Assembly (NCBI RefSeq): GCF_007993755.1
Contig: NZ_CP042467.1
Location: 186,001-250,000, forward strand
Length of the DNA stretch: 64,000 nt
Direction of reading: 5' to 3'
DNA from: Microvenator marinus
Lineage (GTDB): Bacteria > Myxococcota_A > Bradymonadia > Bradymonadales > Bradymonadaceae
The notes beneath the pieces were generated by a model that saw only the letters and a program-made list of their open reading frames with translations, was not told where the DNA came from and ran no database searches. The position numbers were made by a program, and so were the translations under genes. Positions 37,428 through 43,976 of this stretch are shown here, one piece after another (positions within the stretch are counted from its first letter, which is position 1; the number at the start of each line of letters is the position of its first letter).

Positions 37428-37614
37428 GGCTGTAAGTTGTTGATGTTGCGAGTTTATTTTTGGGGTGTTCGAACTTTTTTTAATTATTTACGCAACACTT
37501 GGGAAAATCGTCCGAAAATATAAGTGTGGGGCAAATTAGTTCGCACACATCGATAGAGAAATTCAAGGTCAGTAGATAGATGCAATCGTCAAACGCACAT
37601 TTAGGAGGTCGAAC
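37428..37614. promoter_or_regulatory. AT-rich divergent regulatory region with inverted repeats
   Basis: It holds a -10-like TATAAG (37519-37524, plus strand) without a convincing -35, an 8-bp palindrome GTTCGAAC (37467-37474), a 7-bp inverted repeat TGTTGCG/CGCAACA (37444-37450 and 37491-37497), and a strong ribosome site AGGAGG 6 nt before the ATG at 37615. The good SD with a poor -35 suggests activator-dependent transcription of the tandem paralogs. Which element serves the helicase gene is unclear. Confidence 0.4.
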
Positions 37615-38439
37615 ATGGACGCAGCAAGAATTTCAACGACGCCACCCACTGGGGACATCAGTCCAATAGACGGAACTCTGAGACCGGAACCAGGAGAGCC
37701 TGCAAAGGTCCACATCAATCATAAGGGCGAGGTAGAGACGAATTTTGGATCTCCGTATGGAAAGTTGGCGGACGGGGCCCAAAAAACACTTGACCAAACA
37801 GTGAAAAACCTTGCGACCGAATACGAGGAACTCGGAAAGCAGCTGGCTGAGGCTGAAGCAAAAGGTATGACGGGTACGGTGAATGCCATCAGAAAGGAGA
37901 TGGGGAGGATCGAAAGTACGTTGGATACCATAAAGGAAACGGTTGAAAGGTATCCTAAGGATTCCATGAGATGGAACATGGGAGGGAACCATCAAATCGG
38001 ACATGGCGTTATGGCGTCCCATTTCGCTAAGCTTTCGAGTGCCTTGATCGAAGATATCGGGAAGGCGAACTTTTCGGAGAGAATCGGGATGACTCCGAGC
38101 ACCGAGGCTCCGGACGCGGTCGCCGGAAACAGCGCTGTTTCCGAGTTGGAAGGTGGCAAAGGGAGTTCAGGCGTCAAAGGTGCCGATGGACAGGAACTGA
38201 GTCCGGAGCAAGCCAACCTTATTCAAATGGACCCTGCAACCTTGCACAACACTTTTGCGAGCGATCCAGAAGGCACTTGGAAGTCGATTGCAAGCTTGCC
38301 ACCTCAAGATCGCAACATGGTGATGCAGGCACTTCAGATGGCGATTCAACAAGATAATCAACTCCAATCAATGCTGAGCAATTTCATGAAATCAATTCAT
38401 GACACCGCAAAGGCGCAGATTTCAAATCTTAGGGTTTGA
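37615..38439 (+). CDS. Tandem paralog 1: unknown protein with needle-subunit-like C-terminus
   Basis: A 274-residue, mostly hydrophilic protein with no signal peptide or membrane helix, not recognised as a named family. N-terminal ~50 residues carry GDISPIDGTLRPEPG and VHINHKGEVETNFG; about 60-120 is a predicted coiled coil (LAEAEAKGMTGT, IRKEMGRIE, LDTIKETVERYP); a Gly/Ser-rich linker (about 165-195) leads into a strictly conserved C-terminal ~70 residues beginning MDPATLHNTFASDPEGTW. The last 25 residues (SNFMKS..DTAKA.ISNL) follow the S-N-x2-K-x3-D-x3-A-x-I pattern of type III secretion needle proteins (MxiH/PscF). It is followed by a paralog and a TPR protein. Function unknown; exported structural subunit is my inference. 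Confidence 0.75.
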   Translation: MDAARISTTPPTGDISPIDGTLRPEPGEPAKVHINHKGEVETNFGSPYGKLADGAQKTLDQTVKNLATEYEELGKQLAEAEAKGMTGTVNAIRKEMGRIESTLDTIKETVERYPKDSMRWNMGGNHQIGHGVMASHFAKLSSALIEDIGKANFSERIGMTPSTEAPDAVAGNSAVSELEGGKGSSGVKGADGQELSPEQANLIQMDPATLHNTFASDPEGTWKSIASLPPQDRNMVMQALQMAIQQDNQLQSMLSNFMKSIHDTAKAQISNLRV

Positions 38440-38498
38440 AGGGTTGAAGCGAAGGATTGACAATATTCAACAAATTCGAACTAGAGGAAGGAGGAAAT

Positions 38499-39329
38499 AT
38501 GACTAGCATAGGAAGTATTACAACTACCCCAGCTACCGGGGATATCAGCTCAATCGAGGGAACTCTACGGCCGGATCCAGGGGCTCCAGCAATGGTCCAC
38601 ATCAATCATCGTGGAGAAGTTGAAACGAACTTCGGGAAGCCATACGGAGAGTTGAAAACTACGTCACAGGAAAAAATGGATGCAGTGGTGAAGGGGCTTG
38701 CCAATACCTACGCGAGTCTGACTGAGCAGTTGGCGGAAGCTGAGGCGAAAGGAATGACCGGCACCGCAAACGCGATTAGAAAAGAAATGGGAAAGATTGA
38801 GAACATGTTGAACACCATCAAGGAAACTGTGGAAAGTTATCCAGAGCATGCGAAGACGTGGACCATGGGGTCGAATAATGACTCCTTCGGCCACAACAAA
38901 ATGGCGGTTCATTTTTCGAAACTTTCAAACGAATTGATTCAAGATATCGGGAAGTCCAATTTCTCAGAAAGGATCGGAATGACCCCGAGCACGGACGCTC
39001 CCGATGCTGTCGGCGGAAAGGGCGCGGTATCGGACATGGAAGGGTCGAAGGGAGGCTCCGGAATCAAAGGGGCTGACGGGCAAGAGTTGAGTGCTGAGCA
39101 TGCGAACCTTGTGCAAATGGACCCAGCAACTTTGCACAATACTTTTGCCAGCGATCCAGAGGGTACTTGGAAGTCCATCGCAAGTCTGCCGCCTCAGGAC
39201 CGCAACATGGTGATGCAGGCCCTTCAGATGGCGATTCAGCAGGATAACCAGCTTCAGTCGATGCTGAGCAACTTCATGAAGTCGATGCACGACACGGCCA
39301 AAGCGACGATTTCGAATTTGAGGGTCTGA
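38499..39329 (+). CDS. Tandem paralog 2: unknown protein with needle-subunit-like C-terminus
   Basis: A 276-residue paralog of the preceding protein, similar over its whole length and identical for about 60 residues near the C-terminus (from MDPATLHN to SNFMKS), although the DNA there has many synonymous changes. It shares the LRPDPG, VHINHRGEVETNFG, coiled-coil and Gly-rich linker regions. The ATG at 38499 is set by GGAGG 4 nt upstream and by alignment with paralog 1; an upstream in-frame start at 38457 has no counterpart. The TPR gene starts 2 nt after its stop, implying coupled translation. No signal peptide. Interpretation as for paralog 1. Confidence 0.75.
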   Translation: MTSIGSITTTPATGDISSIEGTLRPDPGAPAMVHINHRGEVETNFGKPYGELKTTSQEKMDAVVKGLANTYASLTEQLAEAEAKGMTGTANAIRKEMGKIENMLNTIKETVESYPEHAKTWTMGSNNDSFGHNKMAVHFSKLSNELIQDIGKSNFSERIGMTPSTDAPDAVGGKGAVSDMEGSKGGSGIKGADGQELSAEHANLVQMDPATLHNTFASDPEGTWKSIASLPPQDRNMVMQALQMAIQQDNQLQSMLSNFMKSMHDTAKATISNLRV

Positions 39330-39331
39330 CG

Positions 39332-39682
39332 GTGGAGCACCTGGAACGCCTAGGTCACCGTTATTTCACGCGTTGGCAGCTTGATCGAGCAATCCATGTA
39401 CTCTCCTTCGTAGCTCGGCAAGCTGCCACGCGTGATTTTGCGCCTTTCATGTTGGGAGAAACCTATCGGCGGCGTGGAGATTGGGAGGAGGCGACGCGGT
39501 GGTACCTGGAAAGCTACCAGCGCGGGAGGACGGACCTCTTGACCATGTTTCGTTGTGCAGAAGGAATGTACCGCCAAGGCCAGAAAAGTGATGCGCGCGC
39601 ATGGTTCGAGTACTTGGTAGCGCATGATGTTCCGGGACCACGTCTGGAGCAGGCTCGCGCGCTCTTGGAGCGCTGCCGATAG
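39332..39682 (+). CDS. Small TPR protein, resembling type III secretion chaperones
   Basis: A 116-residue protein of about three tetratricopeptide repeats: a first hairpin ERLGHRYFTRWQLDRAIHVL, a second FMLGETYRRRGDWEEATRWYLESY, a third MFRCAEGMYRQGQKSDARAWFEYL. The arrangement (single TPR unit, G-[DE]-W-x-x-A, followed by A-E-x-x-x-x-x-G-x-x-x-x-A) is close to the SycD/LcrH class II chaperones and its size matches YscG, the needle-subunit chaperone. Starts with GTG, 2 nt after paralog 2; probably co-expressed with it and possibly its partner. Alternative: a generic TPR adaptor unrelated to secretion. Confidence 0.8.
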   Translation: MEHLERLGHRYFTRWQLDRAIHVLSFVARQAATRDFAPFMLGETYRRRGDWEEATRWYLESYQRGRTDLLTMFRCAEGMYRQGQKSDARAWFEYLVAHDVPGPRLEQARALLERCR

Positions 39683-39815: not shown

Positions 39816-41858
39816 ATGCGTAATTTGTTTTTCTTTCTTAGCCTCCTCTTTCTGGCGGCCACCCTCTCATGCAGTGATGAACAGGTTGGGAGTGCCCAGG
39901 CCGGACGCATCGAAGTGCTGCCGAATCCGATTGGTTTTGCTCAGGTAAATATCGGGGAAAGTGATGAAGTCGCGGTGGTTGTGGCCAATCAGGCGAATGA
40001 GTCACTCACCGTGTTTGAGATGCGCTTGGAGGCACGGGAAGGCGGCACGATCGAAGGCCTAGAATTGGTTAACCCGCCCTCGACGCCATTTGAAGTCGAC
40101 GGAAACGGCGGCGCCGTGAACTTAGCCATTAAGTACACCCCCACGGAAAGTTCCACGCCGGTTCAAGGTAGGCTGGTCTTTGTGAGCAGCGATGACCGCT
40201 ACACGCGTGAGGCCCCACTTGAAGTAGATGTCAACACGCTTGGGAATGAGCCTCGATTGCAGGCATCTCCGGGAGTTGTTCGGTTTACTCGACAAGCTCC
40301 CGGCGCTCGGGAGACCCAGAGTGTGGCTTTGCGCAATATCGGTTCGGCACCGCTCACCATTTGGAGTGAGCCCGCATACGGGGGAGGCCAGGACTTCAAG
40401 CTTAGTGTTCCCGAGAAAACCTATCCTTTGGTTTTGCCGATCTTCGATGCGGACGCGGCGATTGAGAATCCCGATGAGTACGAACTGAAACTCGATGTGG
40501 AGTACGCCCCGATTGGCAATGGTCAGGACTCTGGAGAGATTCTGGTCGTGAGCAACGATGATTCGGCCGAAGGCGGAGCAAATGGTCGATTCACGACTGT
40601 GATTGACGTCGCTGCAAATGCTGATGCGGCGTGTATTTTGGTGAGTGAGACGACGAAGAACTTTGGGCAGGTTCCTATCGGTGGGGCAGGGGCTGAGCTT
40701 GTGGTGATGACGAATTGTGGGACTCAGAACCTTGAGGTTTCCAGTATTCGACTGACCGAAAATTCAGCGGACGACGAGTTTGAGCTCGAGCTCGGCGGAC
40801 TTGATGCCAACGAAGACGGTGACCTCGACCGAATCATCACGCTTAGACCCGGTGAGGAACAGTCGTTTTTGGTTCGCTACACGCCCGAGCAACAAGGTAG
40901 TGATACCGGTACGATCGTGATTGGAAGCAATGACCCGCTTCAGGGCGAGCTCGAGATTGGGCTGATTGCACGCGGGTCTGATGGGATTTGTCCTACAGCG
41001 CGTGCGGGTGCCTTTGTGAAAGGCGGGAGCCAAGTTCTACGCCAATCCTTCACGGCAGCGCCACTTCAGTACATCGTCCTGGATGCCACCGAGAGTACCG
41101 ACGAGGATGGCCGAGTTGTGGAATACGAGTGGGAGTTTGTGCGAACTCCTCCCGGAGTCAACCCGGAGCTTACGCCTACCGAGGCCGACATCAACGATGA
41201 GGACCAAAGCCGTCGGGAGTTCAGGCTCTTGACCGCAGGAACCTACGAGGTCGAACTTCGAGTCAAAGATAACGACGGCTTCCTCTCTTGTGGAGACCCG
41301 GCAAAGGTGACGATTGTTGCCGTTCCGAGCGAAAAGGTGCTCGTGGAGCTTACGTGGACTAACCCCGAAGACCCTGATGAGACCGATAATGTGGGGTCAG
41401 ACGTGGATATCCATGTTCTCAAAATGGGACCGGGCAAATGGTTTGAAGCGCCGTATGATGTCTATTTCCGAAACCCTGACGGGTTGTGGGGGCAAGAGAA
41501 CCCTAGCTTGGATATCGACGATCGCGACGGTCTCGGCCCAGAGAACGTTCAAATGGACGACCCGGCAAACTGCGAATGGTACGCCATTGGAGTTCATTAC
41601 TACCGCCAGTTCTTCGGCACCGCGTACGTGACGGTGCGCGTCTACATCAATACAAACCTCGTGTTTGAGAAGGTGAACAAGCCGATGACCCGCGGCGGAC
41701 AATTCTGGGATGTGGCGCGAATTCATTGGGATAGCGGCCAGGTCTACGAGGTAGACAACGTGCTCGAAGCAGCTCCCAATGGGAGTGCGCCACCGGTGAG
41801 TGCGGGCATGGAAAATAGCGGCCTTTGCACCACGCAAAATCTCTACCCGATTCAATGA
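39816..41858 (+). CDS. Secreted lipoprotein with Ig-like (choice-of-anchor D), PKD and YfaP-like domains
   Basis: A 680-residue exported protein. Signal with lipobox LSC (Cys about 19). The body has three repeats of the ASPM-SPD2-Hydin/choice-of-anchor D beta-sandwich, each with a strand like VNIGESDEVAVVVAN, RETQSVALRNIGSAPLTI, or AELVVMTNCGTQNLEV, and closing GTIVIGSNDP. A PKD-like domain (about 390-505, LDATESTDEDGRVVEYEWEF and GTYEVELRVKDNDG) follows. The C-terminal ~170 residues (VELTWTNP, DVDIHVLK, GPENVQMD, VHYY) resemble the YfaP/DUF2135-type domain. Acidic, surface-exposed; probably adhesive or structural. Such lipoproteins are numerous in Myxococcota and Bradymonadales. A terminator follows the stop. 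Confidence 0.88.
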   Translation: MRNLFFFLSLLFLAATLSCSDEQVGSAQAGRIEVLPNPIGFAQVNIGESDEVAVVVANQANESLTVFEMRLEAREGGTIEGLELVNPPSTPFEVDGNGGAVNLAIKYTPTESSTPVQGRLVFVSSDDRYTREAPLEVDVNTLGNEPRLQASPGVVRFTRQAPGARETQSVALRNIGSAPLTIWSEPAYGGGQDFKLSVPEKTYPLVLPIFDADAAIENPDEYELKLDVEYAPIGNGQDSGEILVVSNDDSAEGGANGRFTTVIDVAANADAACILVSETTKNFGQVPIGGAGAELVVMTNCGTQNLEVSSIRLTENSADDEFELELGGLDANEDGDLDRIITLRPGEEQSFLVRYTPEQQGSDTGTIVIGSNDPLQGELEIGLIARGSDGICPTARAGAFVKGGSQVLRQSFTAAPLQYIVLDATESTDEDGRVVEYEWEFVRTPPGVNPELTPTEADINDEDQSRREFRLLTAGTYEVELRVKDNDGFLSCGDPAKVTIVAVPSEKVLVELTWTNPEDPDETDNVGSDVDIHVLKMGPGKWFEAPYDVYFRNPDGLWGQENPSLDIDDRDGLGPENVQMDDPANCEWYAIGVHYYRQFFGTAYVTVRVYINTNLVFEKVNKPMTRGGQFWDVARIHWDSGQVYEVDNVLEAAPNGSAPPVSAGMENSGLCTTQNLYPIQ

Positions 41859-41957: not shown

Positions 41958-43976
41958 ATGGCCGATGAAACCCTCGAATGCCCTGAATGCGGCGAAATAA
42001 GCCACGATAAAGAGTGGTGTGACCATTGTGGAGCCCATTTGAAACCGGCAGAAAACCTCGAACCTGATTGGCTGTCCCCGGGTGAAACGCTCGAATGCGA
42101 GACTGATTCTGGCAAGCGAGTGGTTACGGTTAACGATGTGGTAGAAGATTTTGCCACACGGAAAGTCTTCACCGGCCGTCTTGAAGACGGGCAGCTGGTC
42201 TTTATCGAGCAGGCCGCGAGCGACCCGGATGATTTGGGAGATTTGCCAGAGGAGGTCAAGCACCTCTTCAGACGACCGTTCTACCGTGGAGTGCGTGGTG
42301 AATTGGTCACCGAGGTCTATCGGGATGTTGGCGGCCTGACCATTGAAGATCTCGTAGAGATGAGCAACCGACAGCTCTCGTATCCGCAGATTAAAGACCT
42401 TTTCGAGGTCGTGGCCGAGACGCTAATCTCTTGTCACGACGCGGGTTATATGGTGCTGGCCGTCGCTCCGTGGACGGTACGTGTGGATGGGATGATGGTG
42501 CCCCAACTCTCCGGCAAGGATGATGTTGAGACACCGTTTCCGGAATTCGCCGACGCAGCGCCCGACGAAGAGCTTGAAGACCTCTCAGATTCCGACGAGG
42601 AAGATTTTGGGGCGTTGGTGGACGTCATCGAAGATGTGGACAGCAACGACGATTTGAGTGCGTGGGAGATCCTCGATGAGCCGTCGAATGTGGTCGATGC
42701 ACTGAGTGATACGGGCATCGTCACGATGAAGAATTTGGAGACGCAGACGCCTCCAGAAATGACGTGTTTGTTCGAGGGGCTCGACCGCGCCTACACAATC
42801 GGCCGAAATCCAGATGAAGTGCCCGTGATCATGGGATTTTCAGCGCCGGAGCTACTTGGAAGAGTTCGCGCGGATATTACTGAAGCTACCGACGTCTTTG
42901 GCCTCGGAATGTTGCTCTATTACATGGTGGCTGGGCGCCTTCCGCCCGCATCAGTCTACACGCGATATGCACCGGCTATCCCCGCTCGAAATTTCCGGCC
43001 AGGTTTTCCTCCTGGGCTGCAGGCTGTGATTTCGCGCGCCACGCGGCCAAATCCAGACGACCGTTTTCCAAACGTTGCGGCTTTCAGAGATGCGTTTCTC
43101 TCGGCCTGCGCAACCATGGAGCGGCGGGTTCCCAATCCAAGTGAGCCTCCAAGGTTTCGCATCGCTGTGGACACCCACGTTGGGATCAACAAGGGGCGCA
43201 GAAACCCCACGAATCAAGACGCGGTATTCGGGAAGTCGTCGGATGATGGGCGGTTTTCACTGATCGTCATCGCCGACGGAGTTTCCACGGCTTCGTACGG
43301 TTCAGGTGACCTTGCGAGCCATTTCCTCAAGGCGCGTGCCAAAGAGACCTGGGAAGAGATTCTTCCGATGTACCTGATGGACGAAGAGATCGATGAGATT
43401 CAGATCATCAACACGCTTCTTCAGCGGGCCAATCAAGATATTGTGGACCACGTCAACGAGCACCACACGCCGTTCTCTGGAAACCCACATGAAGTCATGG
43501 GGTCCACCGCTCTGGTAGCAGTGCTTCATAAGGGCGTGGTTACCCTTGCAGCCCTTGGTGATTCGAGAGCTTATCTCTTCACGAACCTCGGCTTGGAGCA
43601 GGTCACGACAGACCACAATCTCTCCACACTAAGCATTCTTGACGGTGTTCCTGCGGATAGCGCGCTGGCCATGCCTCATTGCGACGCGTTGGCTCGCTGC
43701 CTTGGCACGTTCTCCATCAATGGTGGCGTGCTGACATCTGTGAATCCGCAAGCCGACCTCTTTAAGTTTTCGTTGACCCGGGGCGATTTGCTTTTGCTCA
43801 CGACGGACGGCTTGGTGGATTTTGGTGGGCCGAATCAAATTGCCGCTGAAGAAAATATCTACACCGTTTTGGCGTCTGAGCCGGACCCTGCGCTGGCCTG
43901 TTTGGAGTTGATTCTACTCGCCAACCGCGGAGGCGGTGGTGACAATATTGGGCTTGGAATCGCTCAGTTCTTCTAG
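41958..43976 (+). CDS. Zinc ribbon - pseudokinase - PP2C protein phosphatase fusion
   Basis: A 672-residue cytoplasmic protein with three parts. Residues 8-24 are a CPECG...CDHCG zinc ribbon. Residues about 55-385 follow a Ser/Thr-kinase fold without its chemistry: the lobe after FEVVAETLISCHDAGY has VAPWTVRV instead of an HRDxKxxN loop, no DFG, yet the APE-like SAPELLG (295-301) and the C-lobe TDVFGLGMLLYYMVAG are retained. An acidic insert (about 195-245) sits between. Residues about 400-670 are a complete PP2C phosphatase: NQD (419-421), IADG (438-441), STALVAVL, LGDSRAYL (533-540), TTDG (615-618) and GGDN (660-663). The phosphatase should be active with Mn/Mg; the kinase part is presumably a regulatory or scaffold domain. 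It may oppose the Hanks kinases at 1-5076. Transcribed separately after a terminator. Confidence 0.87.
   Translation: MADETLECPECGEISHDKEWCDHCGAHLKPAENLEPDWLSPGETLECETDSGKRVVTVNDVVEDFATRKVFTGRLEDGQLVFIEQAASDPDDLGDLPEEVKHLFRRPFYRGVRGELVTEVYRDVGGLTIEDLVEMSNRQLSYPQIKDLFEVVAETLISCHDAGYMVLAVAPWTVRVDGMMVPQLSGKDDVETPFPEFADAAPDEELEDLSDSDEEDFGALVDVIEDVDSNDDLSAWEILDEPSNVVDALSDTGIVTMKNLETQTPPEMTCLFEGLDRAYTIGRNPDEVPVIMGFSAPELLGRVRADITEATDVFGLGMLLYYMVAGRLPPASVYTRYAPAIPARNFRPGFPPGLQAVISRATRPNPDDRFPNVAAFRDAFLSACATMERRVPNPSEPPRFRIAVDTHVGINKGRRNPTNQDAVFGKSSDDGRFSLIVIADGVSTASYGSGDLASHFLKARAKETWEEILPMYLMDEEIDEIQIINTLLQRANQDIVDHVNEHHTPFSGNPHEVMGSTALVAVLHKGVVTLAALGDSRAYLFTNLGLEQVTTDHNLSTLSILDGVPADSALAMPHCDALARCLGTFSINGGVLTSVNPQADLFKFSLTRGDLLLLTTDGLVDFGGPNQIAAEENIYTVLASEPDPALACLELILLANRGGGGDNIGLGIAQFF

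Follow-up and report, generated by a model that had tools for sequence, protein, structure and literature searches.

What do two adjacent genes, whose products end like the subunits of a type III secretion system (T3SS) needle, contribute to a bacterium from an order whose T3SS is held to have no needle? The window analyzed here is a 64,000-nucleotide stretch of the genome of Microvenator marinus (NZ_CP042467.1, positions 186,001-250,000), a member of the Bradymonadales. For the Myxococcales, Abby and Rocha described a system without secretin, SctF, tip or translocon and proposed the loss of an ancestral SctF (PMC3459982); the Myxococcus system has been stated to be without a needle subunit in papers from 2012 to 2025, and is recruited by the Tad-like Kil system (PMC12075869). 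The Bradymonadales system was likewise termed needle-less in 2024 (PMC11509652), and the inner-membrane genes of the Bradymonas T3SS are up-regulated during predation (PMC7460792). In the needle-less papers, effectors were inferred to exit by another route, e.g., the Tad pilus.

The initial annotation read the genes, here ORF A, ORF B and a TPR gene (Table 1), as a possible orphan T3SS-like cassette. Its description of A and B as adjacent, hydrophilic and unsecreted paralogs agrees with their coordinates, their hydropathy and the absence of a signal peptide or a transmembrane segment in either protein (maximal 19-residue hydropathy 0.73 and 0.48). The two are about 75% identical (75-76%), and searches of Pfam and NCBIfam returned no enzymatic or toxin domain in them. 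The gap between the stop codon of ORF B and the start of the 116-residue TPR ORF is exactly 2 nt, as had been noted. The annotated pattern Ser-Asn-x2-Lys-x3-Asp-x3-Ala-x-Ile is present in both tails and extends to S-N-x2-K-x3-D-x3-A-x-I-x-N (SNFMKSxHDTAKAxISNLRV). Silent sites between A and B are saturated (dS about 3 or more), and the duplication is therefore old. Despite this saturation, dN is 0.025 over the last 69 codons, compared to 0.25 over the N-terminal 160 codons, so that the tail must be strongly constrained and the motif is no chance pattern; in the family of long proteins to which A and B belong, the tail is the sole strongly conserved region.

Table 1. Features of the cassette, with positions counted from the first nucleotide of the window.
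Feature	Position	Strand	Basis
AGGAGG ribosome-binding site of ORF A	37603..37608	+	Read from sequence
ORF A, long needle-like subunit, 274 aa	37615..38439	+	ORF calling; relatives are ORF B and long proteins in most family genomes
Fast-evolving N-terminal helical hairpin, residues 53-120 of A	37771..37974	+	AlphaFold2; dN 0.25
C-terminal needle-like segment of A (residues 205-274)	38227..38436	+	Profile A3, hhalign, shuffles, dN
GGAGG ribosome-binding site of ORF B	38490..38494	+	Read from sequence
ORF B, long needle-like subunit, 276 aa from ATG	38499..39329	+	ORF calling; GGAGG ribosome site
C-terminal needle-like segment of B (residues 207-276)	39117..39326	+	Profile A3, hhalign, dN
TPR protein, 116 aa, GTG start, probable chaperone of A/B	39332..39682	+	TPR_2 E = 3e-8

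Downstream of the cassette lies a gene for a 680-aa lipoprotein-like protein (signal MRNLFFFLSLLFLAATLSC; 39816-41858, +), which is conserved beside the cassette in about 13 related loci and may be part of the same system or reflect plain synteny. It is followed by a gene for a 672-aa protein (41958-43976, +), by eye with a zinc-ribbon-like start, a kinase-like middle and a phosphatase-like end; several relatives likewise carry it close to the cassette.

The standard needle model, PF09392, does not recognize these proteins at its curated cut-off of 29.4 bits. ORF B alone aligned with residues 239-273 on positions 36-70 of the model (E = 0.41), scoring 11.3 bits, and 13.9 bits in the genome search. 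In a phylum-wide search no Myxococcota genome gave a match above the cut-off; of the nine sub-threshold matches, three fell on needle-like loci and a fourth hit an SctI-like gene adjacent to sctJ. Because no member exceeds the curated cut-off, annotation misses the needle-like family. In a PDB search, the nine best sequences for profile A3, built from 25 tails, were those of PrgI and MxiH (best E 0.014), with alignments that ran to their exact C-termini. Among Pfam families, PF09392 was the one matched by the largest number of long members (5 of 16, best E 6e-5). Aligned to the PrgI segment by hhalign, A3 gave a probability of 87% and a score of 30.2, in register to the end of PrgI, while none of 300 shuffled PrgI sequences did as well (best 16.0) and reversed PrgI scored 10.6. 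The claim that the C-termini are needle-like by profile is thus borne out, and from these sequence comparisons we regard the A/B tail, with good confidence, as homologous to T3SS needle subunits.

Several other searches were set aside. Full-length profiles were discarded since coiled-coil N-termini dominated their matches in the PDB, and a broad enriched profile, A4, lost PrgI and MxiH in the PDB, where it matched a single sequence, a chain of 43 residues from a T3SS needle-chaperone entry (E = 0.11). Weak Pfam matches of the N-terminus to ESAT-6/WXG100, syntaxin-like and other coiled-coil families were rejected because they cover the heptad-rich helices alone. Neither A/B nor the long members matched the known tip families (LcrV, IpaD, EspA) in Pfam or NCBIfam. 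AlphaFold2 models of A and of a short paralog described below had low overall confidence (mean pLDDT 60 and 54, respectively); at this low confidence, both showed a long C-terminal helix (residues 230-273 of A, 75-132 of the short protein), and A showed helices at residues 53-82 and 86-120, in a block of pLDDT about 68-83 over residues 61-110. A fold search with the low-confidence long model returned generic helical bundles alone.

We then consider the secretion genes elsewhere in the genome, a single contig (C1) of 5.85 Mb. A cluster of sctJ, a gene in the sctK position, sctL and sctN is located at C1:1786376-1789630, and sctR-S-T-U, followed by a SycD-like TPR gene, at C1:2250507-2254166, with sctV standing alone at C1:1072813-1074900 and the flagellar cluster separate at 3.78 Mb. 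SctN, SctR and SctV score above the NCBIfam cut-offs for non-flagellar models, and sctJ, sctL, sctS, sctT and sctU are also present; the best model is non-flagellar for SctJ and SctU, SctS also passes the FliQ model, and SctT is slightly higher for FliR. Judged by these models, the genome carries a scattered, near-complete non-flagellar T3SS in which the core export genes are represented. Of the two genes that the initial annotation wanted sought elsewhere in the genome, sctV and sctC, the former was found. A dedicated secretin SctC was not, since the three secretins detected were assigned to PilQ, GspD and a short protein of the Tad/CpaC type. A search of the order for the translocator family PF04888 yielded nothing beyond scattered sub-threshold matches. 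In the SctR of this genome (L074:6508-7686), a FliO-like domain (TIGR03500, E 8e-13) is fused at the N-terminus, ahead of the SctR/FliP domain, an arrangement that from the sequence appears to be a mixed flagellar and non-flagellar trait.

The cassette lies more than 800 kb from the nearest sct gene. With this T3SS in the genome and with relatives of A and B within sct operons (see below), the cassette is not an orphan, and that part of the initial annotation is withdrawn. Its proposal of a secretion-like cassette survives, given the match to needle profiles, the coupled TPR gene and the T3SS genes in the genome.

Relatives of A and B fall into two classes that have the same terminal segment: a long class of 158-331 aa, including the window pair, and a short class of about 130-145 aa (outside the window, ORF starts were set by rule). 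The tails of the two classes align with an hhalign probability of 98.8% and 54% identity over the last 41 residues, and mean column identity is 63% in the short class versus 27% in the long class. An A3 search found the tail in 19 of the 21 sampled genomes of the Bradymonadales-type family. Most family genomes have one syntenic long-class locus, in which DapB/DapA and a UvrD-type helicase (on the opposite strand) are followed by the long gene, a TPR gene and a large lipoprotein; the long gene is single-copy in relatives and a tandem pair in the window genome and in two others (G009 and G005). The short paralog of the window genome encodes 133 aa at C1:5094514, with a 130-aa TPR gene 6 nt downstream. 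Besides the TPR gene, the conserved neighbors of the short locus (L003, L063-L072) are genes for a 124-160-aa protein, a zinc-ribbon protein and a protein of 340-470 aa, together with divergently oriented genes of roughly 150 and 800 aa.

The initial annotation had seen SycD/YscG-like spacing in the TPR protein; the resemblance to SycD is weak in the window copy itself and clearer in its positional counterparts. Most relatives have a TPR gene of about 130-170 aa after the long gene; for those tested beside long forms, the best NCBIfam family is LcrH_SycD (TIGR02552), with E-values of 1e-12 to 2e-7. The window TPR matches TIGR02552 weakly (E = 0.0034, 17.1 bits), and another family scores better. 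The curated cut-off of 104.8 bits is not reached by the window copy or by the counterparts (31-48 bits). The window TPR is most closely related to the second of the TPR genes at locus L053 (E = 1e-10) and to the one at L047.

To ask how widely the tail accompanies T3SS, we searched 284 Myxococcota genomes, a sample that includes drafts, in which genes can be missing, with A3 for the tail and with TIGR02544 at 98 bits or higher for non-flagellar sctJ. The tail was found in 49 genomes and sctJ in 60: 44 genomes had both, 5 had only the tail, 16 had only sctJ and 219 had neither (Fisher p = 2e-32), and outside the family of the window genome the corresponding counts were 27, 3, 15 and 218 (Fisher p = 7e-23), p-values which overstate the case because the genomes share ancestry and are not independent. 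Two of the five genomes with the tail alone hold a partial or weak sctJ-like ORF (87 aa in G005 and 252 aa in G261). Conversely, two apparently Myxococcaceae-like genomes (G159 and G187) have sctJ, and the tail was absent from both even with the enriched profile. Some sctJ matches fall in very long open frames, at G187:C1:5477607 (949 codons), G159:C120:37220 (933 codons) and G218:C16:19312 (1823 codons), and these may be fusions.

Gene order in relatives gives a more specific indication. In two related genomes, G232 and G279, an operon contains, in this order, sctV, a short needle-like gene, a 99-aa gene with a weak SctI match, an ORF of about 170-204 aa, a long needle-like gene, a SycD-like TPR gene (seen in G279; TIGR02552 E 1e-6) and a gene whose product, of 358-378 aa, contains a long hydrophobic segment, after which G279 has an additional 286-aa ORF. 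The 378-aa protein with the hydrophobic segment (L135:4703-5836) and the 286-aa protein (L135:3963-4820) thus occupy the place of translocators, after the long gene and the SycD-like gene, although neither matched a translocator family in the libraries searched. In a third genome (G027), some 1.6 kb separate a needle-like gene from a downstream sctJ-K-L-N cluster that begins with an SctI-like gene (PF17001 E = 3e-4). These operon positions tie both needle-like classes to T3SS.

The order of a tip gene, its SycD chaperone and translocators is that of lcrV-lcrH-yopB-yopD. An order of this kind, with a translocator-like gene, is seen in G232 and G279; in the window genome the TPR gene follows A and B and no translocator was recognized. 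As to the fibre or filament role that the initial annotation had considered, gene order in these two relatives favors a tip or tip-filament assignment for the long class, with the shorter paralog as the needle proper; we therefore consider it likely that A and B are distal tip or tip-filament (SctA-like) subunits with a TPR chaperone and that the short paralog is the needle (SctF-like). That A and B could instead be the main needle subunits, forming long-form needles with the short paralog as a second needle or adaptor, is suggested by the close likeness of the tails of the two classes and by the tandem duplication, which fits an abundant filament subunit. It is nonetheless improbable, because in G232 and G279 it is the short gene, not the long one, that sits between sctV and the SctI-like gene, while the long gene precedes the SycD-like chaperone and the translocator-like protein with its hydrophobic segment, where a tip gene usually stands, and because sequence conservation is much stronger in the short protein.

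A and B might also be effectors that are secreted, or toxins directed at prey, with the needle-like tail reused as a signal for export or docking. Such a role would suit their variable N-termini, the adjoining chaperone-like gene and the tandem copies found in G009, G005 and the window genome. We hold it to be quite unlikely: the long class forms a single syntenic locus in most family genomes, Pfam and NCBIfam gave no enzymatic or toxin domain, and the tail is the conserved part, unlike in effectors. Least probable of all is a convergent helix composition of the C-termini in a cassette unrelated to secretion. The individual E-values are weak, and amphipathic helices match by chance, as with the numerous coiled-coil families that reach comparable scores on the N-terminal part, but the PDB matches are specific to PrgI and MxiH, the register is exact to the C-terminus and the shuffle control is clear; together with the co-occurrence with sctJ, the placement inside sct operons largely refutes this explanation.

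For the A/B system we infer that the subunits polymerise, sit at the tip, bind the chaperone and are used against prey. If the sequence of events resembles that in injectisomes, the export apparatus of the inner membrane would send out the SctI-like rod protein first, then the short protein as the needle, and last the long protein as a tip or tip filament. Before export, each needle-like protein would be held by its own TPR chaperone, which would keep A and B soluble. A and B would have in common with needle subunits a C-terminal helix that packs into the filament, and through this common tail the long protein would attach to the needle in the geometry of a needle subunit, while its variable helical N-terminal domain would face outward, with the hairpin toward the target. 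A tip filament made of one protein is known from Bordetella Bsp22 (PMC12607632). More tentatively, and with more doubt than confidence, a secretin-less T3SS may build the needle and tip and use them on bacterial prey, via the Tad/Kil secretin or as a periplasmic structure until contact.

The T3SS of Bradymonadales-type bacteria thus probably has an external needle after all and the label "needle-less" is probably wrong for Bradymonadales, since the presence of the tail in nearly all sampled genomes contradicts that reading for this family. The needle-like family occurs in about three quarters of the sampled sctJ-carrying Myxococcota, and for those organisms the needle-less model changes. That no match passes the standard model accounts for the gene having been missed, and in the literature collection searched we found no paper naming the long or short needle-like genes. 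For Myxococcaceae, the reported absence of a needle agrees with the two Myxococcaceae-like genomes checked. An early system that had SctF and lacked a secretin was a further proposal of Abby and Rocha (PMC3459982). A needle without a dedicated secretin is the intermediate so predicted, and the finding is in this way relevant to the origin of injectisomes from flagella; if true, a secretin-less needle and tip system would be a living form of that intermediate, kept by many Myxococcota and lost in Myxococcaceae.

Compared to known systems, A and B resemble SctF (PrgI, MxiH, YscF; PF09392) in the conserved C-terminal packing helix with its motif at the very end of the protein, aligned to the end of PrgI, in hosts with a non-flagellar T3SS and in relatives that stand beside sctV or sctJ. 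They differ from it in scoring below the Pfam cut-off and in size: where SctF is a helix-turn-helix of about 80 residues, A and B have 274 and 276, over three times too long for a plain needle as the initial annotation had remarked, and add the N-terminal helical hairpin. With tip proteins and tip filaments (LcrV, IpaD/SipD, EspA, Bsp22) the long class shares a hydrophilic, helical character, a size of about 160-330 aa and, in G232 and G279, a place ahead of genes for a SycD-like chaperone and a hydrophobic, translocator-like protein; it differs in having no sequence match to them and, in Bradymonadales, no recognized translocator gene alongside. The TPR genes resemble the class II chaperones SycD/LcrH in directly following the presumed client and, in the relatives, in covering the full TIGR02552 profile, whereas they stay below its cut-off and the window copy is shorter and matches weakly. 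Finally, the system has in common with the "needleless" T3SS* of Myxococcus xanthus (PMC12075869) and the published reading of Bradymonadales (PMC11509652) the phylum, a genome with a Tad-like secretin and no dedicated one, and a link to predation. Unlike that T3SS*, and unlike the two Myxococcaceae-like genomes with sctJ and no needle-like gene, it encodes two classes of needle-like protein.
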